In this document: positions 4,151-50,894 of the stretch, one piece after another
How the letters are laid out: each line of letters starts with the position of its first letter
Numbering within the stretch: the stretch's first letter is position 1
DNA from: Micromonospora aurantiaca ATCC 27029
Lineage (GTDB): Bacteria > Actinomycetota > Actinomycetes > Mycobacteriales > Micromonosporaceae
Assembly: GCF_000145235.1 (NCBI RefSeq)
Contig: NC_014391.1
Coordinates: 3,418,001-3,482,000 of the forward strand
Direction: 5' to 3'
Length of the DNA: 64,000 nucleotides
Notes under the pieces: generated by a model
Told to the model about the DNA's origin: nothing
Databases searched by the model: none
The model's input: only the letters and a program-made list of their open reading frames with translations
Translations under genes and position numbers: made by a program

Positions 4151-5407
4151 TCAGGAGAGGGCCGCGTCCACCTGGGCTGTCGCGCCGAGCCTTACCGCCA
4201 GGCCGAGCCGTCGGCCCACCTGGCCCACCAGGTCCAGCAGGGCCGCCTCGGATGAGGCGGTCGGGCTCGGGTCGCCGGTGGGACCGGGCTCTCCGGTCGG
4301 ATCCGGGTCGCTCGTCGGGCTCGCGGTCGGCGCCGGAGTCACCTGGTCGGCGGGAGGGCTGGGCGGCTCGACGGGCGTCGACGGGCGGTCGCCGACCCGT
4401 GCCGGCGGCGACCCGGCGACGGGCGGTGCGGTGGTGAGGACCCGCGCCCCGGACGCTGCGGTCGCGTTCGGGAGGCGCTTCGGTGGCGGCGCGGGCCGGG
4501 TCGGCCGGACCACCGGCGACGACGGGTCGACCGGAGTCGCCACGGGCGGCACCCCGGGCGCGGGCGGTGCGGCCGTGGTGGCGGGCGCGGTCGCCTGTCC
4601 GTGCGCCGGATCGGTCTGCCCGGCTGTCGCCGTCCAGGTGCCGGCGGAGGTGACGCCCAGCAGCACGGCCGCCGCCGCGACGCCCGCCGCAGCCAGCCGC
4701 TGGGGGAGTGCCCGGTCGGCCGGGGCGTCCCACGGGCCGAGCGGCCGGGGAGGCCGGGGCCGGGCAGCCCGGTGGGCGGACCGCAGCGCCTCGACGTCCT
4801 CGACGACCGCCTGCCGTGTGCCGGTGGCACCGGCGTGGGCGAGGGTGAGGTAGAACCTGGTGTTCGCCGCGCCCGGGGCCGGTACGCGCAGGCCCGCCGG
4901 GGCGCCGCCGTCGGCGTCGTGCAGCAGGGTGACCGGACGGTCCGGGTGGTGCCCGAGGCCGCGCACGTCCCGCAGCGGCCAGTCCCGCCGGGCGTTCTGC
5001 CCGGCGAAGGCCACCCGCCGGTCGGTCACCACGGCGGTGCCGCTGTCCACCACGCGCAGTCCCGTCGGCAGCGGGCCGTGGGACGGGTCGAGACAACCGG
5101 CGAGCGTGCGGCCCGGCACCGGCAGCCCGGGCAGGTGCCGGGCCGTCGCCTCGACCAGGTCGACTGTGGGCAGGATGCGGTAGACGACCTCGCCGTCGTC
5201 CAGCGGCACCGGCAGCGCGGTGCCGGGCAGTGTGCAGCCGTGGAAGCCCGCCGCTTCCATCGACAGCCGGTCGAGGTGGTCGGCGCGGCGGCGCCAGGTC
5301 CGGGCCGCCGTCTCGTACGCCTGGCGCCCGCGCTCGTTCTCGCGCCGTGCCCAGGCCAGTCGCCGCTGCGGATGAGCCCCGATCGCGTCGGGTCGCCTCG
5401 CCGTCAC
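4151..5407 (-). CDS. Hypothetical single-pass membrane protein with Pro/Thr-rich tail
   Basis: A 418-residue protein. The N-terminal 230 residues are soluble and rich in Arg and Asp, with a repeated DRRVAFAGQ-type beta region. One hydrophobic helix lies near residues 237-258 (AAAGVAAAAVLLGVTSAG). The rest is a low-complexity, mostly Pro/Thr/Ser exterior-type tail ending in a short helix. This suggests a cytoplasmic head and a cell-wall-spanning tail. GTG at 5405-5407 is the start, divergent from the MOSC gene. No family was recognised. The 3' end abuts the repeat-rich region. Confidence 0.65.
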   Translation of the reverse strand: MTARRPDAIGAHPQRRLAWARRENERGRQAYETAARTWRRRADHLDRLSMEAAGFHGCTLPGTALPVPLDDGEVVYRILPTVDLVEATARHLPGLPVPGRTLAGCLDPSHGPLPTGLRVVDSGTAVVTDRRVAFAGQNARRDWPLRDVRGLGHHPDRPVTLLHDADGGAPAGLRVPAPGAANTRFYLTLAHAGATGTRQAVVEDVEALRSAHRAARPRPPRPLGPWDAPADRALPQRLAAAGVAAAAVLLGVTSAGTWTATAGQTDPAHGQATAPATTAAPPAPGVPPVATPVDPSSPVVRPTRPAPPPKRLPNATAASGARVLTTAPPVAGSPPARVGDRPSTPVEPPSPPADQVTPAPTASPTSDPDPTGEPGPTGDPSPTASSEAALLDLVGQVGRRLGLAVRLGATAQVDAALS

Positions 5408-5497
5408 ACCTGGTACAACGCCCTGCGGAGGGCGCGGATACGTGAGCGCGGCTATCGTCCGTTTTGGCGGTGGTATGCCCCCGATTAGACTTCGCGC

Positions 5498-5971
5498 ATG
5501 CCGCGGATCGTCCAGTTGCTGGCCTCACCCGTGCACCGGTACGTGGGCCGCCCGGCGGACGGACCCGCCCCCGCGCCACCGGGCGAGCTGGTGGACCGGG
5601 TGGAGCTACACGCCGGGCTCGGCATCGTCGGTGACCGCTACTTCGGCCGTCCCGCGCACCGTCAGGCGAGCGTCACGCTGATCGCGCGGGAGTCGCTGCC
5701 GCCCGGCGCGGACCTCACCCAGCTGCGGCGCAACGTGCTCACCGAGGGCATCCCGGTGGACGATCTGGTCGGGCGCGTGCTCACGCTCGACTCCGGCGAC
5801 GGCCCGGTCCGGCTGCGGGTGCACCGGGCCGCCCCGCCCTGCGCCTGGCTCGACGTGGTGGTCGCCCCCGGCACGTGGAAGGCGATGCGCCGCCGCGGCG
5901 GCGTCCGGTGCTCGCCGCTCACCGACGGCGTCCTGCGGGTCGGGCCGGTCACCGTCTCCGTTGACGACTGA
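5498..5971 (+). CDS. MOSC-domain protein
   Basis: A 157-residue protein matching the MOSC fold seen in the C-terminus of molybdenum cofactor sulfurases and in YiiM/YuaD-type stand-alone proteins. Visible family features are GIVGDRYFG near residue 45, ASVTLIARESL, QLRRNVLTEGI, and the conserved cysteine in PPCAWLD near residue 114, where these proteins are thought to carry sulfur or bind molybdopterin. The C-terminal RRGGVRCSPLTDGVLRVG is also typical. The start is ATG 5498. It is divergent from the tail-rich membrane protein and stands alone, so its partner enzyme is unknown. Confidence 0.85.
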   Translation: MPRIVQLLASPVHRYVGRPADGPAPAPPGELVDRVELHAGLGIVGDRYFGRPAHRQASVTLIARESLPPGADLTQLRRNVLTEGIPVDDLVGRVLTLDSGDGPVRLRVHRAAPPCAWLDVVVAPGTWKAMRRRGGVRCSPLTDGVLRVGPVTVSVDD

Positions 5972-9290: not shown

Positions 9291-10391
9291 ATGCGGGCTG
9301 CCGTCGACCGGGTGCGTGATGTGGGTCTGACCGGTCACCGGAGGCTGCGGACGTACTTCCTCGTGGCGGTCCAGGCCGGCCTGGCCGCCGCGCTGGCCTG
9401 GACGGTCGCCCGGGAGGTGCTCGGCAACCCGGACCCGACGTTCGCGCCGGCCGCGGCGGTGAGCGTCATCGCCGCCTCGCTCGGCAACCGCACCCGGCGG
9501 ACCGTGGAGCTGGTGGCCGGTGTCGTGCTCGGCATCGTCGTCGGTGACCTGCTGGTGAGTCTCCTGGGCACCGGGCCGTGGCAGACCGGCGTGATCGTGT
9601 TCCTGGCGGTCACCGCGGCGGTGCTCGTCCGCGGCACCGGCGCGCTCGTCACCCAGGCCGGCGGTACGGCGGTCCTGGTCGCCACGCTGACCCCGGTGTC
9701 GCCCGACCTGGAGCTGCCCCGGACCGTCAACGCGCTCGTCGGCGGTGTGGTCGGCCTGCTCGTGGTGCTGGTGATCGCGCCGTTGAACCCGCTGCGCGCG
9801 GTCCGCCGCGTCGCCGACCCGGCGCTCGACAGGTTCGCGTGCCAGATGACCGCGTCGGCGGAGGCGCTGGCGCGGGCCGACGTGCGCGCGGCCGACGAGG
9901 TGCTGGCCCGGATGCGCGCCGCCGAGGCGGAGCTGGACCAGATCGACGAGATGGTCACCGCCGCCGACGAGGTGGTGCGGTTCTCCCCGGTGCGCTGGCG
10001 GCGACGGCGGGCCCTGGCCGCGTACCGGCACGGCGCCGAGCACCTGGACCGGGCGTTCCGCAACAGCCGCGGCATGGTCCGCCGGATCGGCACCACGTTG
10101 CGGGACCGGGAGCCGGTGCCGCCGCAGCTACCAGCCGCGCTCGAGCACTTCAGCGAGGCGATCCGGCTGCTGCACCGGGAGTTCCTGGCCGCCGAGGAGC
10201 CGGTCGCCGCCCGGGAGCGGGTGCTGCGCGCGGTGCGCGACGCGGGCGAGGCGTGCCGGCAGGACATCGGCTTCTCCGGCACCATCGTGGTCTCGCAGTT
10301 GCGGACCGTCGCCAACGACCTGCTGCGCGCCACGGGCGTGCCGCCGGACGAGGCCCGCCGGCTCGTCCGCCGGGCGGCCGCGGCCCGCTGA
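9291..10391 (+). CDS. FUSC/aromatic-acid-exporter-like membrane protein
   Basis: A 366-residue protein. Residues about 20-165 form five to six hydrophobic helices, including PTFAPAAAVSVIAASLGNRTRRT, the helix and RT-basic turn typical of the FUSC/ArAE (YhfK-like) half-domain. A 200-residue, largely alpha-helical cytoplasmic domain follows, ending in Arg-rich sequence. Family members are proposed exporters of aromatic or phenolic acids, often working as dimers. It sits alone downstream of the transducer-like gene after a 33-base gap. Confidence 0.75.
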   Translation: MRAAVDRVRDVGLTGHRRLRTYFLVAVQAGLAAALAWTVAREVLGNPDPTFAPAAAVSVIAASLGNRTRRTVELVAGVVLGIVVGDLLVSLLGTGPWQTGVIVFLAVTAAVLVRGTGALVTQAGGTAVLVATLTPVSPDLELPRTVNALVGGVVGLLVVLVIAPLNPLRAVRRVADPALDRFACQMTASAEALARADVRAADEVLARMRAAEAELDQIDEMVTAADEVVRFSPVRWRRRRALAAYRHGAEHLDRAFRNSRGMVRRIGTTLRDREPVPPQLPAALEHFSEAIRLLHREFLAAEEPVAARERVLRAVRDAGEACRQDIGFSGTIVVSQLRTVANDLLRATGVPPDEARRLVRRAAAAR

Positions 10392-31208: not shown

Positions 31209-32150
31209 TCAGAACCGCAGGCGGCGCAGGTAGCGGTAGCCGACGGCAGCGGTCTGCTGCGGCGTCACGTCGGGGGTGTCGTTCTCCACGATGTACTCCA
31301 TCACCTGGTGCCCCCGGAAGATCCGCGCGAAGTCGATCATTCCGGTGCCGAGGTCGGCCATGTCGCCGGTGGCCGGGTCGCGGTCCTTGACGTGGTACTG
31401 CAACACCCGCTGCGGCGCCGAGCGGATCACGTCGAGCGTGAAGCCCTCCGGGTCGTCGACGCCCTCGCCGGAGTTGATGCCGCCGGTGACCGCCCAGTAG
31501 ATGTCGATCTCCAGGTGCACCAGGCGCGGGTCGAGTTCCTCGGTCAGCACGTCCCACGGCCGCCTGCCGTTGCCGAAGTCGATGGTGAACTCGTGCGCGT
31601 GGTTGTGGTAGCCGTACCGCAGGCCCGCCTTGCGCGCGGCGGCGGCCTCGACGTTCATCTGCTCCGCCCAGCGCTTCCAGTCGTCCTCGCGGTCGGAGTT
31701 CAGGTACGGCACCACCATGAACCGCTGGCCCAGCGTCCGGGCGTTCGCAATCTTCTGTTCCAGCGCGGCGGCGTCGGCGGCGATGCCGTCGTGGCTGGAG
31801 CTGGCCTTGATGCCGATGCCGTCCAGGAAGCGGCGCAGCTCCCGGGCGGTACGGCCGAAGTAGCCGAGCGCCAGCTCGACCCGCGGGTAGCCGATGCGGG
31901 CCAGGTGCGCCAGCGTCGCGTCGTAGCCGGGCGAGCCGTTGAGCGCGTCGCGGACCGTCCAGAGCTGGAGGCTGATCAGTTCCTTCGGCACCGGGCGCCG
32001 GCCGTGATGGTGCCCGCCGGCCTGGGCCGCGGTCGCGCCGAGCCCGGTGGCGAGCCCGATCCCGGCGAGCGCCGCCAGGGAGCCGCGCAGCAGGTCGCGC
32101 CGGTCCAGCGACTGCCGTAGCGCCGTCTGTCCGTCGAATCCGTAGCACAT
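31209..32150 (-). CDS. Exported sugar-isomerase/epimerase-like TIM barrel protein (Tat signal)
   Basis: A 313-residue protein. The N-terminus has a twin-arginine signal, DRRDLLRGSLAALAG, followed by a hydrophobic stretch and cleavage near ATAAQAGG, so it should be folded and then exported by Tat. The mature part is an AP-endonuclease-2-type barrel with metal-type residues in YGYHNHAHEF, LEIDIYWAV and YHVKDRDPAT. It resembles the family's extracellular or periplasmic members. It is divergent from the NUDIX gene. Confidence 0.85.
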   Translation of the reverse strand: MCYGFDGQTALRQSLDRRDLLRGSLAALAGIGLATGLGATAAQAGGHHHGRRPVPKELISLQLWTVRDALNGSPGYDATLAHLARIGYPRVELALGYFGRTARELRRFLDGIGIKASSSHDGIAADAAALEQKIANARTLGQRFMVVPYLNSDREDDWKRWAEQMNVEAAAARKAGLRYGYHNHAHEFTIDFGNGRRPWDVLTEELDPRLVHLEIDIYWAVTGGINSGEGVDDPEGFTLDVIRSAPQRVLQYHVKDRDPATGDMADLGTGMIDFARIFRGHQVMEYIVENDTPDVTPQQTAAVGYRYLRRLRF

Positions 32151-34950: not shown

Positions 34951-36849
34951 CTATGAACCACCGCTCGGCTCGTAGATCGTCTCGAGACCACGTTCCACGC
35001 GGATCAGCGAGTTGAGCCATGCCCGGGTCTCGGCGTCCGTCGAGTACAGGATCGTGCCGCGCATGCCTCGCGTCATCAGCACCTTGTAGGTGTTACGGAT
35101 CAGGCGGTCGGCCTCCGCGTCACTGAGCGACTTGCGGCTGCGGAATGCGGGGTCCTTCGACTCCGCCCGCTGGGTCACCAGCCGGCCGTCGCGGGCGACC
35201 AGGTCGGGTCCGAGGATGACACCGGACCACTCGTACTCGAAGCCCTGTGCGGTGTAAACGCAACCGACCTGGCCGAATCCGTGCGGATCGGTGGCCCAGA
35301 ACGCGCTGCCCGGCGCGTCGCCGACGCTGCGGTCGCTCTTCACGTTCCAGGGACGCGCCCAACCACCGATCCGTACGTCGGCGACCAGGGACTCGTCCGG
35401 CAGCGGGTCGCTCCACGGCCAGCAGTACCCGGCCGACATCCGCGCCGTCTCCCCGGCCGCCTGCTTCGCGGCCAGGAACGCCTCCATCTCCTCCGGCGAA
35501 CTCGCCAGCCGCAGGTCGAAGCGTCCGTCTCCGGCCCACACCGACGGCTTGCCGCCGTCGAGGCCGAGCAGGTCGACGACCCACTCCTCGTACGCCTCAC
35601 TGCCGCCGCACCGGAACTGGTCGTGCAGCGACACGACCTCGACATCCAGATTGAGCTGTTTCGCGTACGTGGAGATGACCTCGACGTTCCCCAACTCGCC
35701 CGGCTTGACCACCTGGTGCTCGTCGAGCAGGAAGACCGGTACCCGGGCCGCGGCGAGGAGCTCGTCGATCTGCGGCCGGGCACGGTCCCGCTTCGCCTTC
35801 GGCGTGAACCGGTTGACCGAGGTCTCCCTGATCCGGTGCGCCTCGTCGCAGATCAGCACGTCGAGCCCGTTCCGCTCGGCGGTCATGAAGCTGTTGAAGT
35901 AACCGAACAGGTTCTTCAACCGGGTGGAGCCCTTGCCCGCGTAACGCCGCAGCGTCTGGGTGAACGATCGCGAACCCGTGGCGTGCATGACCGAGCGCTG
36001 CTGCCGGGCCAGTTCACCGAGCACCGAGAGTGCGATGACGCTCTTGCCGCTGCCCGGCCCGCCGGCCACCACCACTACCGACTTGCGGTCGGCGCTGCGC
36101 GCACGCTCCACGGCGTGCAACACCAGCTCGTACGCCAGGCGCTGCTCGTCGAGCAGGGTGAAGTGGGACCGGTCCTTCAGCTCGGCGGCGGCGTAGGACA
36201 GCAGGTGCTTGCTGGGGCGTACCGAACTGGTGAGGAAGCGGTCCGCGGCGGCTGCGCCGGAGCCGGGGGCCAGGTGGTTTCGCAGGTAGTCGAGGAACCG
36301 GCCGCGGCGCTGCTTGGTGAAGATCCGGCTCTGCTCCGTCGCCCGCCGGGCGAAGAGGTCGTCGACGTCGCGGTCGACGGCGTTGTGCAGGTAGGCGGCC
36401 CCGACGATCGGGTTGCGCGAATGGGCGAGCACCCCGAGGAAGTCCGCGAGGTATTCGCAGTAGTCCTCGACCTGCACGCCCGGATGCAGCCGAGGGGTGG
36501 CGGCGTGCTCGACCAGGACCAGGCTCTCTGATCCCTCGTACGACTCGACCCGGGACCACTGCTTCAACTCCACGACGACGTAGGAGTCCTCGGCCGTCTT
36601 CGGATGTGTTCCGGCGAGGACGACGTCGATCCGCTTGCTGGTGAGCGGGAGTTGGTACTCCACCAGCATCTCGACCTGCCCGAGACCCGCGTCGGCGAGA
36701 TCCTGGGCGAGCACCGGCAGGCTCCGCTCCCAGGACCGCCGTTCGGAGGCGCTCACGTTGTGCCCGATGTGCTCCGCGATCCGGTCGGCGAGGGCGCCAC
36801 CTGCCGCGTAGCGCAGCAGTCCGTCGGCGGAGGTGCGAAATGCTGACAC
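34951..36849 (-). CDS. DUF2075 helicase-like ATPase with N-terminal PD-(D/E)XK-type nuclease region
   Basis: A 632-residue nucleic-acid enzyme. The N-terminus has a restriction-nuclease-like motif: D75 in KRIDVVLAG and E94-x-K96 in VVVELKQW. Walker A is VVAGGPGSGKSVIAL (near 262-275) and Walker B is LICDEAHRIRE (near 332). Later motifs include VFLLDEHQVVKPGE and DQFRCGGSEAYEEWV. The C-terminal helicase end has VYTAQGFEYEWSGVILGPD and RNTYKVLMTRGMRGT. DUF2075 proteins recur in defence neighbourhoods. The MazG-like gene lies 128 bases upstream on the same strand, and the two are probably co-expressed. Start 36849 is the first good ATG. Confidence 0.85.
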   Translation of the reverse strand: MSAFRTSADGLLRYAAGGALADRIAEHIGHNVSASERRSWERSLPVLAQDLADAGLGQVEMLVEYQLPLTSKRIDVVLAGTHPKTAEDSYVVVELKQWSRVESYEGSESLVLVEHAATPRLHPGVQVEDYCEYLADFLGVLAHSRNPIVGAAYLHNAVDRDVDDLFARRATEQSRIFTKQRRGRFLDYLRNHLAPGSGAAAADRFLTSSVRPSKHLLSYAAAELKDRSHFTLLDEQRLAYELVLHAVERARSADRKSVVVVAGGPGSGKSVIALSVLGELARQQRSVMHATGSRSFTQTLRRYAGKGSTRLKNLFGYFNSFMTAERNGLDVLICDEAHRIRETSVNRFTPKAKRDRARPQIDELLAAARVPVFLLDEHQVVKPGELGNVEVISTYAKQLNLDVEVVSLHDQFRCGGSEAYEEWVVDLLGLDGGKPSVWAGDGRFDLRLASSPEEMEAFLAAKQAAGETARMSAGYCWPWSDPLPDESLVADVRIGGWARPWNVKSDRSVGDAPGSAFWATDPHGFGQVGCVYTAQGFEYEWSGVILGPDLVARDGRLVTQRAESKDPAFRSRKSLSDAEADRLIRNTYKVLMTRGMRGTILYSTDAETRAWLNSLIRVERGLETIYEPSGGS

Positions 36850-36977
36850 GACTTGCCCCCGGGCAGCACGAAATGATCGTGCGCATGGGGGGCGTGTCCG
36901 GCGACGACCGGAAGCCCGTCGTTACGCGCTTGTACCGGGTGGACTGTAGCGGAGAGATCATTCTCCGGCACGCCCCG

Positions 36978-37313
36978 CTATCGCTTGGCCGCAGAACCTC
37001 TGACTTCTCCAGCCGGATAGCGGACGGACACCTCGGCCAACTTGGCGACTGCGGCCTCCGTCAGGTCGATGCCGAGGACGTCCGCCAGTCTCGTCAGGTA
37101 GATCATGACGTCGCCGATTTCCGCCCGCACACGTGCGCCCGCCTCGGGATCCGACATCACCGCACCGGCCTGCTCCGGGGTCAGCCACTGGAACTCGGCG
37201 ACCAGTTCTCCGACCTCGCCGGCGAGTGCCATGGCGAGGTTCTTCGGCGTGTGGAACTGCTGCCAGTCACGTTCCTCCGCGAACGCCCGTACGTGGGCCG
37301 TCAATTCGTCCAT
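36978..37313 (-). CDS. MazG-like nucleotide pyrophosphohydrolase
   Basis: A 111-residue all-alpha NTP pyrophosphohydrolase (RS21-C6/dCTPase type). The metal-binding acidic residues lie in ALAGEVGELVAEFQW (about residues 29-43) and EIGDVMIYLTRLADVLG (about 66-82). It should hydrolyse (d)NTPs to monophosphates. It is upstream of the DUF2075 nuclease-helicase on the same strand. The pairing suggests a defence role in which nucleotide depletion or alarmone removal is tied to DNA or RNA cleavage. This is an inference from context. Confidence 0.85.
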   Translation of the reverse strand: MDELTAHVRAFAEERDWQQFHTPKNLAMALAGEVGELVAEFQWLTPEQAGAVMSDPEAGARVRAEIGDVMIYLTRLADVLGIDLTEAAVAKLAEVSVRYPAGEVRGSAAKR

Positions 37314-37831: not shown

Positions 37832-40369
37832 ATGGTCGCGGCACACGAGACGACACTGCGGGAGCTACTGGAGGGCGCGAAGCAGTATCGAGTACCGCTC
37901 TACCAGCGGACGTACTCGTGGTCTGAGTCTCAGCTCGGGAGGCTGTGGGAGGACATCATCAAACTGGCCGAAGATCGTGCCGAAAGCCCGAGTCTGACGC
38001 ACTTCATCGGCTCGCTCGTGCTCGCTCCCAGCCCTACGCATGGGCCCTCGGTCTCCGAGTTCCTGGTGGTCGACGGTCAGCAGCGGCTGACCACCCTCTC
38101 GATCCTTCTCTGCGCTATCCGCGACCATCGGGCCGCTCACGAGGATCCCGACCATCGAAACCGGATCGACCCGGAATACCTGATCAACAAGTACAAGCCG
38201 GCGCATCGGATGAAACTCGTTCCCACCCAGGCCGATCGCGCCGCGTACGAGGCTTGCTTGGAAGCAACACCGCAGGCTGGTGGAAGTGACCGGGTGGGTG
38301 CTGCGTACCGGTTCTTCGCGGCGCAACTGGTCGCCGTGGACGACCCGGAAGACCCGCTGGACATCGAGCGCATCGAGGACGCTGTCATCTCGGGGATGGC
38401 GTTGGTCTCGGTCGTGGCCCAGGCCGGCGACAACGTCTATCGAATCTTCGAGTCGCTGAACAACACCGGCCTGAAGCTCACCCAGGCCGATCTACTCCGC
38501 AACTACCTGTTCATGCGGCTGCCGACACGGGGCGAAGCGGTTTATGACTCGTTGTGGTTCCCTTTACAGAAGCAGCTGAACTCCGGCGAGCTGGAGCAGT
38601 TGTTCTGGCTCGACCTGGTGCACCAAAACCCCGAGGTGAAGCAGACCGACACCTACGTAGGTCAGCAGGGCCGGCTCAACAGACTCCACACCGAGGTCGA
38701 GATCGAGGCCGAGGTACGTCGATTCTGCCGTCTCGGCGCCCTCCTGCGGATCATCCTGCATCCCGAGGAGGAAGGCGACCCGGAGGTACGACGGCGTCTG
38801 GCTCGGCTCAACGCGTGGGACACGACGACTGTCTTGCCGTTGCTGCTGCATCTGTTGGATCGCCGTAAGGAGGGAACGGCAACCTCCGGCCAGATCGCCT
38901 CCGCGATGTTGTATGTGGAGAGCTACTTCGTGCGGCGCCTCCTGATCGGCCGCGCTACCGCGAGCATCAACCGGGTCCTGCTACGCATCGTCACCGACAT
39001 GCGAAAGGACCTACCGGTCGACGAGGCAGTGCGGGCATACCTGTCGGTTGGCCGGAAGTACTACGCCACCGATAGCCACCTGCGGGAGTCGGTGCGCTCG
39101 GTCCCGTTCTACCTGAACGGACGCGCGACGCAGCGCAAGCTGGTGCTTCAGTGGCTGGAGGAGTCATTCGGCAGCAAGGAGCCGGTGGCCCCGACGTCAC
39201 TCACCATCGAGCATGTCATGCCGCAGAGCCCGACTGCGGAGTGGCGGCAGATGCTGGGCGAGGACCTGCAGGGCGAGGAGAGCTTCGCCGAGGTGCATGA
39301 CGCTCTGGTACACACATTGGGCAACCTCACCCTGACCGGCTACAACGCGGAGCTGAGCAACAGTTCCTTTCTCGTCAAGCGCGCACAGCTCGGCAAGAGC
39401 GGGATTGCGCTGAACCGGGAGATCGCCGAGAAGAAGCGCTGGGGGCGGCCCGAGATCCACGCTCGCGCGGATGCGCTCGCGGAGCGCATCATCGCCACCT
39501 GGCCCGGCCCCACAGAGGAAGCGGGTAACAAGTCCGAGGTGCCTTGGGACGTCATGAACGCCGCGCTCGCCGCGTTGCCTGCCGGCTCCTGGACCTCGTA
39601 CGGAGATCTCGCCGCGCTGATCGGCAGCCACCCCGTCTCGGTCGGTGCCCGGCTAGCGAACCATCCCGCGCCTCACGCGCACCGTGTGCTCCAGGCCGAG
39701 GGAGTGGTGGCACCGAACTTCCGCTGGCTCGACCCGTCCCGCACTGATGATCCACACGACTTACTCCGTGACGAGGGTGTCGAGTTCGACAAGTACGGTC
39801 GGGCCAGTCAGGCCCAACGCATAGGTGTGCTGGAACTGGCCCAGCTCGCCGGCATGCCGCAACAGGACGGGTCGGATCAACTCCTTCGGCCACGATCCCG
39901 CCACAATAGCTCCCTGGACGATCGCTTCCTTGAGCAGTTGCGCGACTTGCAGGACACACACGTCGCGCTTGGCACGGTCGCGGTGCTGGAAGCCTGGGCC
40001 GGCATGGGCGGCACCCTCCTCTACGGATCTGGAGGTGAGACGTCGTGCTTTCTCATGGCACGCGGTAAGGACCATCAGCTCGGCAACATCTGGCCTGCGA
40101 CGATCTATCCGAGCGGGAAGTTCGAGATCGTGTTCCAACATCTCAGCACAAGGATCCCGTTCGATGACATCACGCTGCGTGAGCAGTTTCGCCAGCGCTT
40201 GAACGAACTGGCCGGCGTGAAGATCGCGGTCGCCAAGCTCGCACTGCGTCCCGGCTTTCCCCTCGACGTCCTGGCTGACGTGAAGACTCGGGAGGCGTTG
40301 ATCGGGCACCTCCGTTGGTTTTACGACCAGGCCATCACCAACGAAGAGGCCGGGGTATCCCGGCATTGA
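37832..40369 (+). CDS. DUF262-DUF1524 (GmrSD-type) restriction protein with alkyltransferase-like domain
   Basis: An 845-residue multidomain protein. DUF262 has VPLYQRTYSW (21-30) and VVDGQQRLTTLS with the nucleotide-handling DGQQR (81-85), then FESLNNTGLKLTQADLLRN. DUF1524 carries an HNH-like nuclease motif, TIEHVMPQS (His461), and HTLGNLTLTGYN. Residues about 570-650 resemble the DNA-binding domain of MGMT/ATL proteins: PAGSWTSYGDLAALIGSHP and HRVLQAEG. The C-terminal 200 residues end in a DUF5655-like region. The gene is fused by TGATG to the next and has two TTA codons (38564, 39761). AAGGAG precedes ATG 37832. By analogy with GmrSD it may cut modified phage DNA. Confidence 0.85.
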   Translation: MVAAHETTLRELLEGAKQYRVPLYQRTYSWSESQLGRLWEDIIKLAEDRAESPSLTHFIGSLVLAPSPTHGPSVSEFLVVDGQQRLTTLSILLCAIRDHRAAHEDPDHRNRIDPEYLINKYKPAHRMKLVPTQADRAAYEACLEATPQAGGSDRVGAAYRFFAAQLVAVDDPEDPLDIERIEDAVISGMALVSVVAQAGDNVYRIFESLNNTGLKLTQADLLRNYLFMRLPTRGEAVYDSLWFPLQKQLNSGELEQLFWLDLVHQNPEVKQTDTYVGQQGRLNRLHTEVEIEAEVRRFCRLGALLRIILHPEEEGDPEVRRRLARLNAWDTTTVLPLLLHLLDRRKEGTATSGQIASAMLYVESYFVRRLLIGRATASINRVLLRIVTDMRKDLPVDEAVRAYLSVGRKYYATDSHLRESVRSVPFYLNGRATQRKLVLQWLEESFGSKEPVAPTSLTIEHVMPQSPTAEWRQMLGEDLQGEESFAEVHDALVHTLGNLTLTGYNAELSNSSFLVKRAQLGKSGIALNREIAEKKRWGRPEIHARADALAERIIATWPGPTEEAGNKSEVPWDVMNAALAALPAGSWTSYGDLAALIGSHPVSVGARLANHPAPHAHRVLQAEGVVAPNFRWLDPSRTDDPHDLLRDEGVEFDKYGRASQAQRIGVLELAQLAGMPQQDGSDQLLRPRSRHNSSLDDRFLEQLRDLQDTHVALGTVAVLEAWAGMGGTLLYGSGGETSCFLMARGKDHQLGNIWPATIYPSGKFEIVFQHLSTRIPFDDITLREQFRQRLNELAGVKIAVAKLALRPGFPLDVLADVKTREALIGHLRWFYDQAITNEEAGVSRH

Positions 40370-41088
40370 TGGCTAGGAATTCCATCGGGAAGGAAGGCAT
40401 GCGCCAACCCCTCACCCTCGCGGAGATTCTGGCCGTGCTGGATGCACCCGAGTCGGTCACGGACCTCCGCCGCTACTTCCACGGGAGTGGAGATGCCGCG
40501 TTCACCGGAGGGCAATTCGACGCGCTGGGTGGCGGCGGATCTCGTCCCGAGGTAGCGCATACCATCACCGCCGAGGACATCATCGCGGTCGAGCTGCTCA
40601 GTGTGACCATCGGCCCATGGCAGCGGCTGGACCTCCTTCAGGGCCAACTTGGTCATGACGTGTCGGCGGCGTTGGCCAGCATCCCGGTCCGCGTCGAGTT
40701 GGGCGAGGACGCCGCGCTTGAGCACATCGTCGGCGGCGGTTCCGCAGATGCCGCATGGCGCCTGCTACGTGCTGCGACCGGCATCGAGAGGGTCATCGCG
40801 GGTAAGCTGCTCGCCCGGAAACGTCCGAGGCTCGTTCCGGTCTACGACCGCGTCGTCTCCTGCGCCTACCGTACCCGCAGCGGATTCTGGAGATGGCTGC
40901 ATTGCAAGCTACGCGAAGATAGCGGGATATTGATGCAGCGGCTCGACGTATTGCACAAGGAAGCCGGGCTGCCCCCCTCGGTCAGCCGACTTCGGGTGCT
41001 TGATGTCGTGTTCTGGATGGGGCACCGCAACGACCACCTTCCCAATGGCTGTCTCGGCCTCACCGTGCCGAACTCGGGGGCCCGATAA
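40369..41088 (+). CDS. DUF6308-like protein
   Basis: A 239-residue protein of the actinobacterial DUF6308 type, recognised from DLRRYFHGSGDAAFTGGQF, AEDIIAVELLSVTIG, AGKLLARKRPRLVPVYDRVV and VSRLRVLDVVFWMGH. The fold and activity are unknown. ATG 40369 overlaps the preceding stop as TGATG, so translation is coupled to the DUF262 gene; ATG 40399 with AAGGAAGG close by is an alternative start. The K-R-P-R-L-x-P-V-Y-D-R motif suggests nucleic-acid contact, but this is only a guess. Confidence 0.75.
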   Translation: MARNSIGKEGMRQPLTLAEILAVLDAPESVTDLRRYFHGSGDAAFTGGQFDALGGGGSRPEVAHTITAEDIIAVELLSVTIGPWQRLDLLQGQLGHDVSAALASIPVRVELGEDAALEHIVGGGSADAAWRLLRAATGIERVIAGKLLARKRPRLVPVYDRVVSCAYRTRSGFWRWLHCKLREDSGILMQRLDVLHKEAGLPPSVSRLRVLDVVFWMGHRNDHLPNGCLGLTVPNSGAR

Positions 41089-41089
41089 G

Positions 41090-41356
41090 ATGCGTAAGGT
41101 CACGGTTCACATTGACTGTGACAACGATGAGCGGTACGCGGACATCGCCAATGCCATCTGGGCCCAGATGAACGCCACCGGCTACAACTTCAGTATTTTG
41201 CTCGACTCCACGGCTGACGCTGCTGCAGTCGACAGGCGGTGGGACGAATACAGCGAAGTGTCCTGGGCGGCTGGCGGTCGGCGTGGCACCCCGCAGGCGG
41301 TCGCCGTCCAAGCGGCTCGCAACGTCGGCCGCCGCTCTGCCGGGACGAAAAAGTGA
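41090..41356 (+). CDS. Small protein of unknown family in the defence-like operon
   Basis: An 88-residue protein starting MRKVTVHIDCDNDERYADIAN. It starts 2 bases after the DUF6308 stop and overlaps the next gene by 4 bp, so it is translated as part of the operon. The N-terminus looks like a ferredoxin-like beta-alpha-beta unit and the C-terminus is basic (RRGTPQAVAVQAARNVGRRS), which could contact DNA or RNA. I recognise no family. It could be an adaptor or a regulator of the neighbouring nucleases. Confidence 0.65.
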   Translation: MRKVTVHIDCDNDERYADIANAIWAQMNATGYNFSILLDSTADAAAVDRRWDEYSEVSWAAGGRRGTPQAVAVQAARNVGRRSAGTKK

Positions 41357-42354
41357 CGGATCGCAAACCCAAGACCCGCCTGCCCGCCATCGTAGTCTGC
41401 GTCAACTGCGGCGACGAAGTCCACGGTCGGGCGGGCTCACGCGGGCGCGGCCCAGACATCGCGTGGTATGCCCACTGTGGACGATGTGCTGCCTTGGTGA
41501 TAGAGCGGACAGAGCGCCTCCATCTACTGCCGGAGCGCACCGGGGTGGACCTCTACCGCTGCCGAAACTGTGGCTCTCACCGGATCGGTCGCACCAGTTG
41601 GCGCACCCGGTGCCATATCTGTCTGGACGAGCGGTCGGCAGGCCACGCTCTCGCGTCCGGTGAGCGCCTATTGGCCCGCCCCCTACACGAGCCCGACCTC
41701 GCGGATCAGGTTCGTCGATTTGCCGGTCTCACGTCCATGGACGTCATTCCCGCGTGCGCCGCCGCCGAGTTCCAAGCCGCGTTCGCTCTTGGCATGGAGC
41801 TTGACCGGTATCGCCGTGATGGCTGGAGCGACGTCACGGGAGACGTGCACGGATTGCCGTGGTGCGGCGGACGGACTGGTCCCTGGTCCCATGGCACCTG
41901 GGGCGTTCACGACCGATGTGGATCCTGGCAGCGGCTCCGTGACCGGTCCTGTCCGCGGTGTCCCGCAGAACCTGGCGACCGCTCGTTCGCCGCCTTGCAG
42001 GACAGCACATACCTGCTTTACCTGGTCCGGCATCGAGGCTTGCTGAAGTTCGGGGTCGGCGGCGTGCGCCGGGTACGGCAGCATCTCTCGGCAGGTGCGG
42101 AACTGATGGAGGTCATTGAGGGGCGGCACGCCGACGTCATCGCCGCCGAGGCGACTCTCAAGCGGCAGAAGAAGGAAGCAGCAGTGCCCCTGCGAAAGTG
42201 GCGGACCTGGCGGATGCCGGCGTCGTTCGGCCGAGGAACCGAGGTGGTACGGGCCGACGTTGAGATCAAATTGGCCGACGTGATGACCAACGGCCGTGAC
42301 GTCACCGTCCGCTTCGCCACCCGAGAGCGGCGGGCTGACGCCGAGTCCGGGTGA
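41353..42354 (+). CDS. Zinc-ribbon protein with GIY-YIG-like C-terminal domain
   Basis: A 333-residue protein. The N-terminus has two or more zinc ribbons: C16-x2-C19, C42-x2-C45, C70-x2-C73 and C87-x2-C90, with another CPRC pair at 200-203. Residues about 219-275, TYLLYLVRHRGLLKFGVG, VRRVRQHL and a later Glu266, resemble a GIY-YIG nuclease core (strand, GxxxxFG turn, Arg helix, Glu). GTG 41353 overlaps the previous stop as GTGA. It is the last gene of the four-gene operon. A Zn-ribbon plus GIY-YIG layout is not one I know, and nuclease activity is a prediction. Confidence 0.65.
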   Translation: MTDRKPKTRLPAIVVCVNCGDEVHGRAGSRGRGPDIAWYAHCGRCAALVIERTERLHLLPERTGVDLYRCRNCGSHRIGRTSWRTRCHICLDERSAGHALASGERLLARPLHEPDLADQVRRFAGLTSMDVIPACAAAEFQAAFALGMELDRYRRDGWSDVTGDVHGLPWCGGRTGPWSHGTWGVHDRCGSWQRLRDRSCPRCPAEPGDRSFAALQDSTYLLYLVRHRGLLKFGVGGVRRVRQHLSAGAELMEVIEGRHADVIAAEATLKRQKKEAAVPLRKWRTWRMPASFGRGTEVVRADVEIKLADVMTNGRDVTVRFATRERRADAESG

Positions 42355-46891: not shown

Positions 46892-48087
46892 TACTTCCCC
46901 ACGATGAAGATACGCGGGCCGAACCCGCGATCGGCTATGAACTGCTCGACCATTGCTGTCTGCTGTGCCGAGAACCTGGAGACGTCGACCGGAACGAGAT
47001 CGGCCTTCTCCAGGTGCCTTTCGATCTGGTACTGAAGTTGTGGCCACTGCCGGTCGAAATACTGGCCGGGGAAGTTGCCCACCGCATCATAGGTGCGTCC
47101 CGCCTCGTCCACCCAGTCCGCCGAGGAGTCCGACGGCGCCCGTCTAAGCCGCACTCCGAGGTGCTCTTCGACCCGGACCGCCGTCTCGGCCTCGGCCGGC
47201 CGAAATCTCCCGGTCGCAGGATCCATGCCCAGATCGCGAATCCGCTGCGCCTCGTCTACTTTCGAGGGCCGGGAAAGGTCCGCGTCTCCGCCGGGCTTCG
47301 ACGGGCCGGCCGTCGGCTCCGGTGAACGGTGGGTCAGTCGGCTCAGCGCCTCCCTGAGCTTGCCGATCAGCTCACCCAGCCGGCGCATCTCCGGCATCAG
47401 CCGCCGCAGACTCGCCAGCAACCCCCGCAGCAACCGCCCGATCCGCGCCGCCCACGACGCCACGGTCGTCGTCACCTGCTCGACCACCAGCGGCGTCGCC
47501 AGCCCTGCCGTGGCGACCAGTTCGGCCGCGTACACGATCAGCCGGGACACGCAGGCGGCGATGGCGTCGCGGACCAGCAGCCGCACGGCCGCGACCAGGC
47601 CGGCGGCACCCTCGGTGATCGCTGCCATCACCTCGGCGCCCTGCGCCAGCCCGGTGACGGCCTGCTGCTGCTCGGCTGCCCAGCGGCGGTAGCCGGTGGC
47701 GGCGGCGCCGGTCCAGCCGGTGACCTCGGTGCGTACGGCGTGGGCCAGCTCGGCGGCGTCGTCGCGCAGCGACGCGGCGACGTTGCGCCAGGTCTGCGCG
47801 TGCGCGGTGATCTCGGCGGGGTCGCCGGCGAGCCAGTCGAGGGCCTCGCTGAGCGGCTTGACGTGCTCGATGAGCCAGGCGATGCCGTACTGGAGGAGGA
47901 TCCCGGCGGGGTCGGACACGAGGGCGAGCGCGTCGAGGCCGGCGCTGACGACGCCGAGGCTGCTGTCGATCCAGCTGCCGGTACGGACGCCCTGGGCGAT
48001 GAGTTCGATGTCCTCGCAGATCCACACGCCGGCCCAGGGACTCGGTCCGGAGTCCGCCGCGGCGGCGACCAGCGGGTTCGTGGTCAC
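46891..48087 (-). CDS. Polymorphic toxin: helical WXG-like carrier with CdiA-like C-terminal toxin
   Basis: A 398-residue protein. Residues about 1-250 are long amphipathic helices with a W-x-G-type turn (VTGWTGAAATGYRRWAAEQQQ), as in type VII secretion substrates. An acidic linker follows. The last 90 residues, DEAGRTYDAVGNFPGQYFD, HLEKADLVPVDVSRFSAQQ and RGFGPRIFIVGK, resemble the CdiA-type toxin domain of contact-dependent growth inhibition systems, which cut DNA or tRNA. GTG 48085-48087 is the start. The next gene is the likely immunity gene, and two small helical-secretion-type genes lie upstream. Confidence 0.7.
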   Translation of the reverse strand: MTTNPLVAAAADSGPSPWAGVWICEDIELIAQGVRTGSWIDSSLGVVSAGLDALALVSDPAGILLQYGIAWLIEHVKPLSEALDWLAGDPAEITAHAQTWRNVAASLRDDAAELAHAVRTEVTGWTGAAATGYRRWAAEQQQAVTGLAQGAEVMAAITEGAAGLVAAVRLLVRDAIAACVSRLIVYAAELVATAGLATPLVVEQVTTTVASWAARIGRLLRGLLASLRRLMPEMRRLGELIGKLREALSRLTHRSPEPTAGPSKPGGDADLSRPSKVDEAQRIRDLGMDPATGRFRPAEAETAVRVEEHLGVRLRRAPSDSSADWVDEAGRTYDAVGNFPGQYFDRQWPQLQYQIERHLEKADLVPVDVSRFSAQQTAMVEQFIADRGFGPRIFIVGK

Positions 48088-49502: not shown

Positions 49503-50894
49503 TCAGTGAACCAGCTCGCCGCCGATCCCGTGAGCCAGCCGGGCGATCGCCGCCACCGACCGGTCGACGTCCGCCTCCGTGGTGGTCGCGTTCGACACCG
49601 AGATCCGCATCAGCCGGCGTCCCCGCCACGTCGTCCCGCCTGCCCAGCACGTCCCGTCGGTCTGCACCGCGGCCACCACCCGGTCGGTGCGCGCGTCGTC
49701 GCCGAACCCGACCAGCACCTGGTTGAGCACCACGTCGTTCACCACCTCGAACCCGGCCGTGCTCAGGCCGTCGGCGAACCGCCGGGCCAGCGCACAACAC
49801 CGCTCCACCAGCGCGGCGACGCCGTCGCGGCCCAGCTCCCGCAGGCCCGCCCAGACCGCGAACCCACGGGCGCGGCGCGAGGACTCCGCGGTCAGGTCCG
49901 CGCCCGCGGGCGCACCGCCGGAACCCACGAGGTACGCGGCCGCGTACGACATGGCCGCCGCGTGCACGTCGGGCCGGGCGCAGAACGCGAACGCCGTGTC
50001 GTACGGCAGGTTCAGCCACTTGTGGCCGTCGCAGGCCCACGAGTCGGCCGTCTCCAGCCCGTCCACCAGGTGCCGGGTGGCCGGACTGGCGGCCGCCCAC
50101 AGCCCGAACGCGCCGTCCACGTGCGCCCACCCGCCGTGCCGGTGGACGAGGTCGCAGGCGCGGCGCAGGTCGTCGCACGCACCGGTGTTCACGTTGCCCG
50201 CCTGCAGGCAGACGATCGTCGGTCCGGGACCGGCGTCGCGTAGCGCCGCCGCCAGCGCGTCCGGGTCGATCGCGCCCTGCGGGCCGGTCGGCACCGGGCG
50301 CAGCGCGTCGGTGCCGAGGCCGAGCAGGCGCAGCGACCGGTCGATGGTGGCGTGCCGTTCGGCGCCGGCGAACACGCGGACCGCGGGCGCGCCGGTCAGG
50401 CCGCGCCGTTCCACGTCCCAGCCGGCGTCGGCGAGCACCTGGTGGCGGGCGGCGGCGAGCCCTGCGGTGTTGGCGGCCTGGCCGCCGGTGACGAAACCGG
50501 CCGACGCGGTCGCCGGTATGCCGAGCAGCTCCTTGAGCCAGGTCCCGGCGGCCGTCTCGGCGGCCACCGCGGCGGGGGAGGTGACCGCGTTGAACGCGAT
50601 CTGGTCCCACCCGGCGGCCAGCATGTCCGCGGCGGTCGCGGCCGGGGAGGCGCCGCCGACGACGAAGCCGAAGTAGCGCGGCCCGGCGGTGGCCACGAGT
50701 CCCGGTTCGGCGGCGGCCACCAGCTCCGCGAGGACCCGCTCGGGCGGCGTGGGCGCGTCCGGCAGCGGGCCGGCGAACGCCTCGTTCAGCACGGCCTGGT
50801 CCACGGGTACGCCGACCGGCCGGTCCGGCAGCGACAGCCGGTAGTCGGCCGCGTGGTCGGCGGCGCGCCGGAACAGGTGCCTCAGCTCGTCCAT
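49503..50894 (-). CDS. Pyridoxal-5'-phosphate-dependent decarboxylase (aromatic-L-amino-acid type)
   Basis: A 463-residue enzyme of the group II amino acid decarboxylase family. PLP binding is visible: GFVTGGQAANTAGLAAAR near residue 130, WAHVDGAFGLWAAAS (Asp for the PLP nitrogen) near 265, and DSWACDGHKWLNLPYD with the Schiff-base lysine near 296. It should decarboxylate an amino acid such as an aromatic one or glutamate-like substrate, though residues that set specificity cannot be read. The start ATG is at 50892-50894. Confidence 0.9.
   Translation of the reverse strand: MDELRHLFRRAADHAADYRLSLPDRPVGVPVDQAVLNEAFAGPLPDAPTPPERVLAELVAAAEPGLVATAGPRYFGFVVGGASPAATAADMLAAGWDQIAFNAVTSPAAVAAETAAGTWLKELLGIPATASAGFVTGGQAANTAGLAAARHQVLADAGWDVERRGLTGAPAVRVFAGAERHATIDRSLRLLGLGTDALRPVPTGPQGAIDPDALAAALRDAGPGPTIVCLQAGNVNTGACDDLRRACDLVHRHGGWAHVDGAFGLWAAASPATRHLVDGLETADSWACDGHKWLNLPYDTAFAFCARPDVHAAAMSYAAAYLVGSGGAPAGADLTAESSRRARGFAVWAGLRELGRDGVAALVERCCALARRFADGLSTAGFEVVNDVVLNQVLVGFGDDARTDRVVAAVQTDGTCWAGGTTWRGRRLMRISVSNATTTEADVDRSVAAIARLAHGIGGELVH

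Follow-up and report, generated by a model that had tools for sequence, protein, structure and literature searches.

A stretch of 64,000 nucleotides from the genome of the soil bacterium Micromonospora aurantiaca ATCC 27029 (one contig, 7.03 Mb; NC_014391.1, positions 3,418,001 to 3,482,000), hereafter referred to as the window, contains four rightward open reading frames (ORFs) of 845, 239, 88 and 333 amino acids (aa), as stated in the original prediction. As judged from its sequence, the region is well supported as a restriction-type defence locus, because it encodes a GmrSD enzyme, occupies an exchangeable site and is patchily distributed. Two modules describe its genes better than a single fixed system does, module A being gene 1 and module B genes 2–4. 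The new result concerns gene 2: the hitherto unannotated family DUF6308, which is tied to restriction genes, looks like the HhH-GPD DNA glycosylases. Taken as a whole, the locus is tentatively interpreted as a restriction-type anti-phage cassette of two separable modules that lies in an exchange site and forms a co-directional run in several species, a reading that we hold with slightly less than even confidence. The features of the cassette are as follows.

37832..40369, + strand: gene 1, putative type IV restriction nuclease of the GmrSD family, 845 aa; DUF262, DUF1524/HNH and alkyltransferase-like domains followed by an uncharacterised C-terminus (Pfam, PADLOC, invariant motifs)
39560..39781, + strand: alkyltransferase-like (PF01035) domain of gene 1, residues 577–650 (Pfam, alignment of 30 homologues)
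40399..41088, + strand: gene 2, DUF6308, predicted HhH-GPD DNA-glycosylase fold; ORF opens at 40369 (Pfam, model, hhalign)
40774..40848, + strand: HhH-GPD-like motif of gene 2 with the putative catalytic Asp160, residues 136–160
41090..41356, + strand: gene 3, conserved small protein outside known families, 88 aa (genome survey, alignment)
41353..42354, + strand: gene 4, N-terminal zinc-binding cysteines and C-terminal GIY-YIG-like domain, 333 aa
41398..41622, + strand: zinc-ribbon-like region of gene 4, residues 16–90 (C16, C19, C42, C70, C73, C87, C90)
41983..42330, + strand: GIY-YIG-like region of gene 4, residues 211–326 (Y223, KFG 232–234, R240, E266)

The product of gene 2 was matched to DUF6308 by Pfam (E 1.2e-62), and an HhH-GPD motif was suspected from its sequence before any fold search. 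Its AlphaFold model was almost entirely helical (predicted local distance difference test score (pLDDT) 87.6; predicted template modelling score 0.85). Re-examination of Foldseek's own candidates with VIA-align, in which families absent from the lists were not read as excluded, placed HhH-GPD proteins in 48 of the 50 listed entries, including all of ranks 1–20, although MutY and OGG structures recur in many of these rows. The matches covered residues 14 to 236 approximately, which is nearly the whole protein. The best of them was MagIII (root-mean-square deviation 4.3, 153 aligned residues), with a Z of 6.7; this value is below 8, in a range where, by the tool's own warning, helical models often fall. 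The first unrelated row had a Z of 4.5. DUF6308 sequences were also compared by hhalign with 27 endonuclease III/MutY-type sequences, which were taken from relatives and named by us from PF00730 hits. An alignment of 20 DUF6308 sequences gave a score of 23.7 (E 0.012), above all 200 column shuffles (best 19.2), and an E value better than that of any of the 20 control families (lowest 0.061, from a control whose raw score of 22.9 is close). With 41 sequences, the score rose to 30.7 (E 9.6e-4), again above 200 of 200 shuffles (best 20.2).

In the hhalign register, Asp160 of DUF6308 aligns with the catalytic Asp of endonuclease III, for which K120 and D138 are named in the available text of PMC11754123. 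The distance from the hairpin Gly to this Asp is 22 residues in both families, as counted for endonuclease III from its known motif. The Asp160 position is occupied by D in 38 and by E in 3 of the 41 homologues, Pro153 and Trp216 are conserved in all 41, and a plasmid-borne member reads LPGIGRTKATKLIARKRPRLYPIWD. Model and sequence together suggest that DUF6308 is probably a protein of the HhH-GPD DNA-glycosylase fold, and it may act as a glycosylase. The original proposal of a multi-nuclease system thus overlooks the component of greatest interest.

Besides the repeat structures and the Z value, several observations weigh against this assignment. Foldseek returned no match for the DUF6308 model at E 0.001 (best 0.13), the hhalign probability was low (3.5% with 20 sequences, 22% with 41), and the Lys of bifunctional glycosylases (K120 in endonuclease III) is absent, Val142 taking its place in the window protein. 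Mono-functional HhH-GPD members are not known to carry this Lys either. No member of the uracil-DNA-glycosylase superfamily appeared among the listed fold matches, an absence that does not exclude that fold. Sequence searches of the PDB with the profiles of DUF6308 and gene 4 gave nothing useful (best E 0.35 and 0.24, respectively), no family was assigned to genes 2–4 by the PADLOC models, a PHROGs search likewise gave none for them below E 0.3, and the term DUF6308 was found in no paper of the collection searched. At E 0.001, no match was obtained for P0002 in the phage collection or for P0004 in the plasmid collection.

The domain labels proposed earlier for genes 1 and 2 were all recovered with Pfam. 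For gene 1, the matches were GmrSD_N (E 2.9e-36), GmrSD_C (E 1e-25) and the alkyltransferase DNA-binding domain PF01035 (7e-6), the last just below its cut-off (26.2 versus 27.0 bits); among the PADLOC models, Orf5/HEC-06 were matched. The enzyme looks intact by sequence, because DGQQR (residues 81–85) and the HNH-type residues H461, N498 and N510, together with N505, are invariant in 30 of 30 aligned homologues, one of which (L163) has 50% identity. The acceptor Cys of the PF01035 domain is replaced (HAHR in the window, NAHR in most relatives); none of the 30 homologues has Cys at this position and 29 have Ala. Y590, R607 and H617-R618-V619 are invariant throughout; no conserved Arg occupies the expected position of the arginine finger, R607 being a different residue. 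The domain would thus be expected to bind or flip bases and not to act as a repair enzyme. The original prediction knew of no description of such a sensor for this family. However, PF01035 was reported in 2015 to be fused to several GmrSD homologues, mainly from Streptomyces (PMC4619093), so the fusion is already published; the available text of that report states no role for it. In a Streptomyces plasmid, a relative of gene 1 (46.5% identity) precedes an SMI1/KNR4 gene; a CRISPR Cse1 gene is located some 6 kb away, and the annotation of that stretch shows no DUF6308. Pairs of an HTH_31-DUF5753 regulator and a DUF397 protein are found repeatedly, either upstream of gene 1 or within the same island (L130, L034, L137 and others).

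Gene 3, previously described as an orphan, has family members in 13 of 160 Micromonospora genomes surveyed. Across the 13 sequences, 17 of 88 positions are invariant, and the gene ends 0 to 102 bases upstream of the gene 4 match; our guess is that its product is an adaptor or subunit of gene 4. In gene 4, the zinc-ribbon-like cysteines (C16 to C90) as well as Y223, KFG 232–234, R240 and E266 are invariant in 12 of 12 aligned proteins, the places of the active-site Tyr, Arg and Glu having been assigned by eye. VIA-align of the C-terminus (residues 211–326) listed Slx1, UPF0213 and UvrC in rows 1–11 of 16, with low Z values (Slx1 4.5, the best; UvrC 2.8). Fold matches to viral proteins numbered 24 at E ≤0.001; where these carry a name, it is that of a zinc-ribbon, treble-clef, CapR-homology or uncharacterised protein. 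T5 Orf172, GIY-YIG and 'Hef-like homing endonuclease' entries followed at E 0.002–0.005, and template modelling scores were low in most rows. The earlier description of a zinc-ribbon GIY-YIG protein agrees with the cysteines, the motif and the predicted fold, but no Pfam or profile match confirms it, and 'GIY-YIG-like' is a likely, not settled, label given by motif and predicted fold. Against it stand the weak model (pLDDT 68.8), the lack of any GIY-YIG Pfam family at E ≤10 in gene 4 and 11 relatives (HMMER filters discard most weak matches) and an hhalign comparison with UvrC/Cho-type domains that gave no match and was run without a shuffle control. A Foldseek search of the PDB with the gene 4 model likewise gave no match at E 0.001. 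Named relatives comprise seven Micromonospora records and one from Kutzneria (L010), in which the homologue lies beside a 578-aa protein of no assigned family. In a further locus (L033:97-7970), a gene for a 2297-aa SNF2-helicase protein overlaps a gene 4 homologue by 4 bases (script-called starts) and represents another possible partner.

Among the 160 genomes, gene 4 was found in 17, DUF6308 in 34, gene 1 orthologues in 32 and a UvrD-like helicase (at least 79% identity) in 26. Gene sets for Fisher tests were compiled by hand from the genome search results. They comprised 32 of 37 genomes for gene 1 (at least 64% identity, with the partial genes of G485, G503 and G507 included and five genomes at 43–50% left out), 21 of 34 for DUF6308 (at least 48%) and 26 of 36 for UvrD; a weak second place in G485 was left out of the gene 3 set. 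All 13 carriers of gene 3 also carried gene 4 (p 5e-16), DUF6308 was present in 12 (p 4e-9) and gene 1 in 9 (p 0.0014) of the 17 gene 4 genomes, and gene 1 in 18 of the 26 UvrD genomes (p 1e-9); these values count for less in favour of a joint cassette than they appear to, as they ignore phylogeny and a shared exchange site inflates co-occurrence. Genes were called with our own script, which is crude, with approximate starts and some broken genes split or fused.

The predicted recurrence of the four-gene order was seen in 8 of the 17 gene 4 genomes (window, L034, L036, L037, L038, L039, L046 and L047, with broken genes in the last two), all on a common strand. The order is not fixed, however. 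In six of the eight, genes 1 and 2 are separated by UvrD, which often follows gene 1 orthologues in relatives; L037 and L038 contain one more helicase-like gene as an insertion. The ninth genome with genes 1 and 4 (L042) lacks DUF6308 and retains a UvrD remnant, and another remnant lies upstream of genes 2–4 in L043. In the window genome, the UvrD-like helicase of relatives was not found at E 1e-150. On a simple reading, the older order was gene 1-UvrD-DUF6308-gene 3-gene 4, and UvrD has since been lost from the window. A fixed four-gene system was rejected, since genes 1 and 4 are separable and helicase genes intervene in relatives.

DUF6308 adjoins other restriction-type genes in distant actinobacteria as well (14 regions fetched, of which the neighbours were Pfam-scanned in 6; 7 plasmid regions viewed). 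It follows a PD-T4-6-like kinase and a RAMA-domain protein with weak HSDR_N similarity in six loci (L032, L034, L150–L152 and L154), a RAMA protein without a kinase match in four (L145, L155–L157) and a kinase without a RAMA match in L153; the PD-T4-6-like Ser/Thr kinase, RAMA protein and DUF6308 may themselves constitute an undescribed defence system. Farther away, DUF6308 comes after an HsdR-like subunit and a 239-aa protein (L199) or after SNF2, DUF4365 and a 486-aa protein (L207), and in L204 it forms a fusion with an AAA domain. Two Streptomyces plasmids carry it behind large proteins that are uncharacterised. The copy on a Gordonia plasmid is separated by other genes from a DUF262 gene (a distance of about 3 kb) and from a gene for an EcoRI-type methyltransferase (about 4 kb). 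A Rhodococcus plasmid (L215) carries full and partial DUF6308 genes within 5 kb (9493-9744 and 4920-5621).

The variable genomic position originally anticipated was also found. The interval around the cassette is an exchange site for defence cargo, delimited by two genes that are metabolic by Pfam:

31209..32150, − strand: upstream flank, sugar-isomerase-like triosephosphate-isomerase-type barrel protein (Pfam)
49503..50894, − strand: downstream flank, pyridoxal-phosphate-dependent decarboxylase-like protein (Pfam)

Both flank genes (31.2–32.2 kb and 49.5–50.9 kb) are present in 24 of the 160 genomes and share a contig in 16; the window arrangement is kept in 11, in which the interval ranges from 7.1 to 60.7 kb. 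Within it, gene 4 occurs in the window and G491 and as a broken copy in G534, kinase-RAMA-DUF6308 in G407 and G541, and a different GmrSD (50% identity) in G520. On the − strand of the window at 34951-37313, a gene for a MazG-like protein (111 aa) is followed downstream by one for a 632-aa Schlafen-group-3-type helicase protein (Pfam SLFN-g3_helicase 1.4e-87, PADLOC PDC-S41 2e-19), and the two genes may make up another defence unit next to the cassette. A WXG100-like protein with a CdiA C-terminal tRNase-like domain (46894-48087, − strand) is a probable polymorphic toxin, relatives of which adjoin gene 4 in six further loci (L036, L039–L043).

Of the junctions described originally, the TGATG, the 1-base gap and the GTGA overlap are present, but TGATG is probably not the start of gene 2. 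The ORF opening at 40369 would encode 239 aa; in 10 of 10 printed copies from relatives, a start codon stands at the residue 11 position (40399 in the window), preceded in 9 of 10 by GAAGGAG or a closely similar sequence; the window sequence at this point is GGGAAGGAAGGC-ATG. With 40399 as the probable start, genes 1 and 2 are separated by 29 bases; with the 1-base gap and the 4-base overlap farther on, the four genes still form one co-directional run. Third-position guanine-cytosine (GC) contents of genes 1–4 are 0.80, 0.77, 0.75 and 0.75, compared with a median of 0.93 among 42 other script-called window ORFs of at least 150 aa, four of which are at or below 0.81; the low values suggest imported DNA. 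A scan for sigma-70-type promoters found 0 versus 0.6 expected and is uninformative given the GC content, and none of five terminator-like sites lies between the genes on the + strand.

Under the preferred reading, gene 1 would recognise modified phage DNA through its DUF262 and alkyltransferase-like domains, the former using nucleoside triphosphate, the Cys-less latter binding or flipping altered bases without repairing them, and the HNH domain would cut the DNA; type IV action is expected by analogy with other family members. In module B, a modified base would be flipped out and removed by DUF6308, and the zinc-finger GIY-YIG-like product of gene 4 would make a nick at the resulting abasic site, with the gene 3 protein as its subunit or adaptor. 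The UvrD-like helicase is a frequent addition in relatives and is absent from the window copy. Base specificity, the glycosylase and nuclease activities and joint action of the two modules are all conjectural. PabI-family restriction glycosylases act by base excision and are aided by apurinic/apyrimidinic (AP) endonucleases, according to the available text of PMC10273834, which makes a glycosylase and nuclease pair plausible. A broader proposal, rather doubtful as a whole, is that DUF6308, as an HhH-GPD glycosylase family, serves as an interchangeable base-excision arm of actinobacterial restriction systems (partnered by GmrSD-ATL and UvrD, by kinase and RAMA, by HsdR-like proteins or by SNF2), and that the cassette rebuilds base- and nucleotide-excision repair against hypermodified phage DNA from an alkyltransferase-like sensor, a glycosylase, a GIY-YIG nuclease and, in relatives, UvrD.

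The main rival explanation, which has a real though minority chance of being correct, is that two independent defence cassettes share the exchange site, with gene 1 self-sufficient and genes 2–4 directed at a separate target. Of the 32 genomes with gene 1, 23 have no gene 4, which means that module B is not required for module A, and 8 of the 17 gene 4 genomes have no gene 1; both counts weigh against joint action. The Streptomyces plasmid relative of gene 1 fits such independence, as do DUF6308 and gene 4 in the absence of gene 1 (L032, L041, L043 and L048). On the other hand, genes 1 and 4 share order and strand in all nine genomes in which they co-occur (one without DUF6308), and only 15–16 bases separate the end of UvrD from DUF6308 in L034, L037 and L039, which argues for the joint cassette.

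The remaining alternatives concern single components. Gene 4, together with gene 3, could be a selfish homing-type zinc-finger GIY-YIG nuclease gene amid defence genes and not an effector. Its viral fold matches, its varied partners (the SNF2-helicase protein and the Kutzneria 578-aa protein), its broken or partial copies in G485, G508 and G534 and its position after a gene 1 remnant (first 49 residues) in L044 would agree with this, but its strong linkage to gene 3 and DUF6308 and the constraint on its conserved residues make it improbable. It is also unlikely, if less so, that DUF6308 excises no base and instead binds or flips bases, works as a transferase like gp46/PUGT or belongs to a toxin-antitoxin-like pair. 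The weak Foldseek matches do include gp46/PUGT (8z2n), a phage base-modification enzyme. On Rhodococcus and Cryobacterium plasmids, moreover, DUF6308 adjoins small proteins (near mobF in two of three cases) and not restriction genes, which also speaks against the cassette reading. However, the acidic residue retained at the catalytic place in all 41 homologues favours excision, and the small partner on the Rhodococcus USK13 plasmid is, by eye, unlike that common to the R. fascians and Cryobacterium plasmids.

If the proposed cassette is correct, the uncharacterised actinobacterial family DUF6308 gains a testable chemistry, base excision, and the HhH-GPD fold would be a third origin of glycosylase-based immunity, beside the uracil-DNA-glycosylase superfamily (Brig) and PabI, the enzymes to which a non-exhaustive literature search on glycosylase defence led. 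A reason would also be supplied for the alkyltransferase-like domain on GmrSD enzymes. The combination would borrow parts of DNA repair for defence, joining a probable phage-DNA nuclease to a predicted glycosylase and a second predicted nuclease.

Among known systems, gene 1 resembles the type IV enzymes GmrSD, Eco94GmrSD and BrxU in its DUF262 and DUF1524 domains and motifs and in its single-chain form, but adds a Cys-less alkyltransferase-like domain and about 190 residues, and in the window it is followed by DUF6308, a small protein and gene 4. Gene 4 shares a predicted GIY-YIG-like C-terminus and a zinc-binding N-terminus with phage zinc-finger GIY-YIG/T5 Orf172-type proteins and with UvrC/Slx1, from which it differs in having no sequence-profile match, in being chromosomal and in its linkage to DUF6308. 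DUF6308 itself resembles endonuclease III, MutY, MagIII and OGG in predicted fold, helix-hairpin-helix and an Asp at 22 residues, whereas it carries a conserved KRP before the Asp, has no Lys at the K120 place and, in several members, shows linkage with restriction genes. Should the preferred reading hold, it would share restriction through base excision with the PabI family. The PabI fold is a HALFPIPE and its target site is controlled by methylation, whereas the model of DUF6308 is helical. DUF6308 would likewise share the excision of modified phage bases as a defence with Brig1 and Brig3, which are placed in the uracil-DNA-glycosylase superfamily in the available text of PMC11078745 and PMC13160076, whereas DUF6308 resembles the HhH-GPD enzymes.

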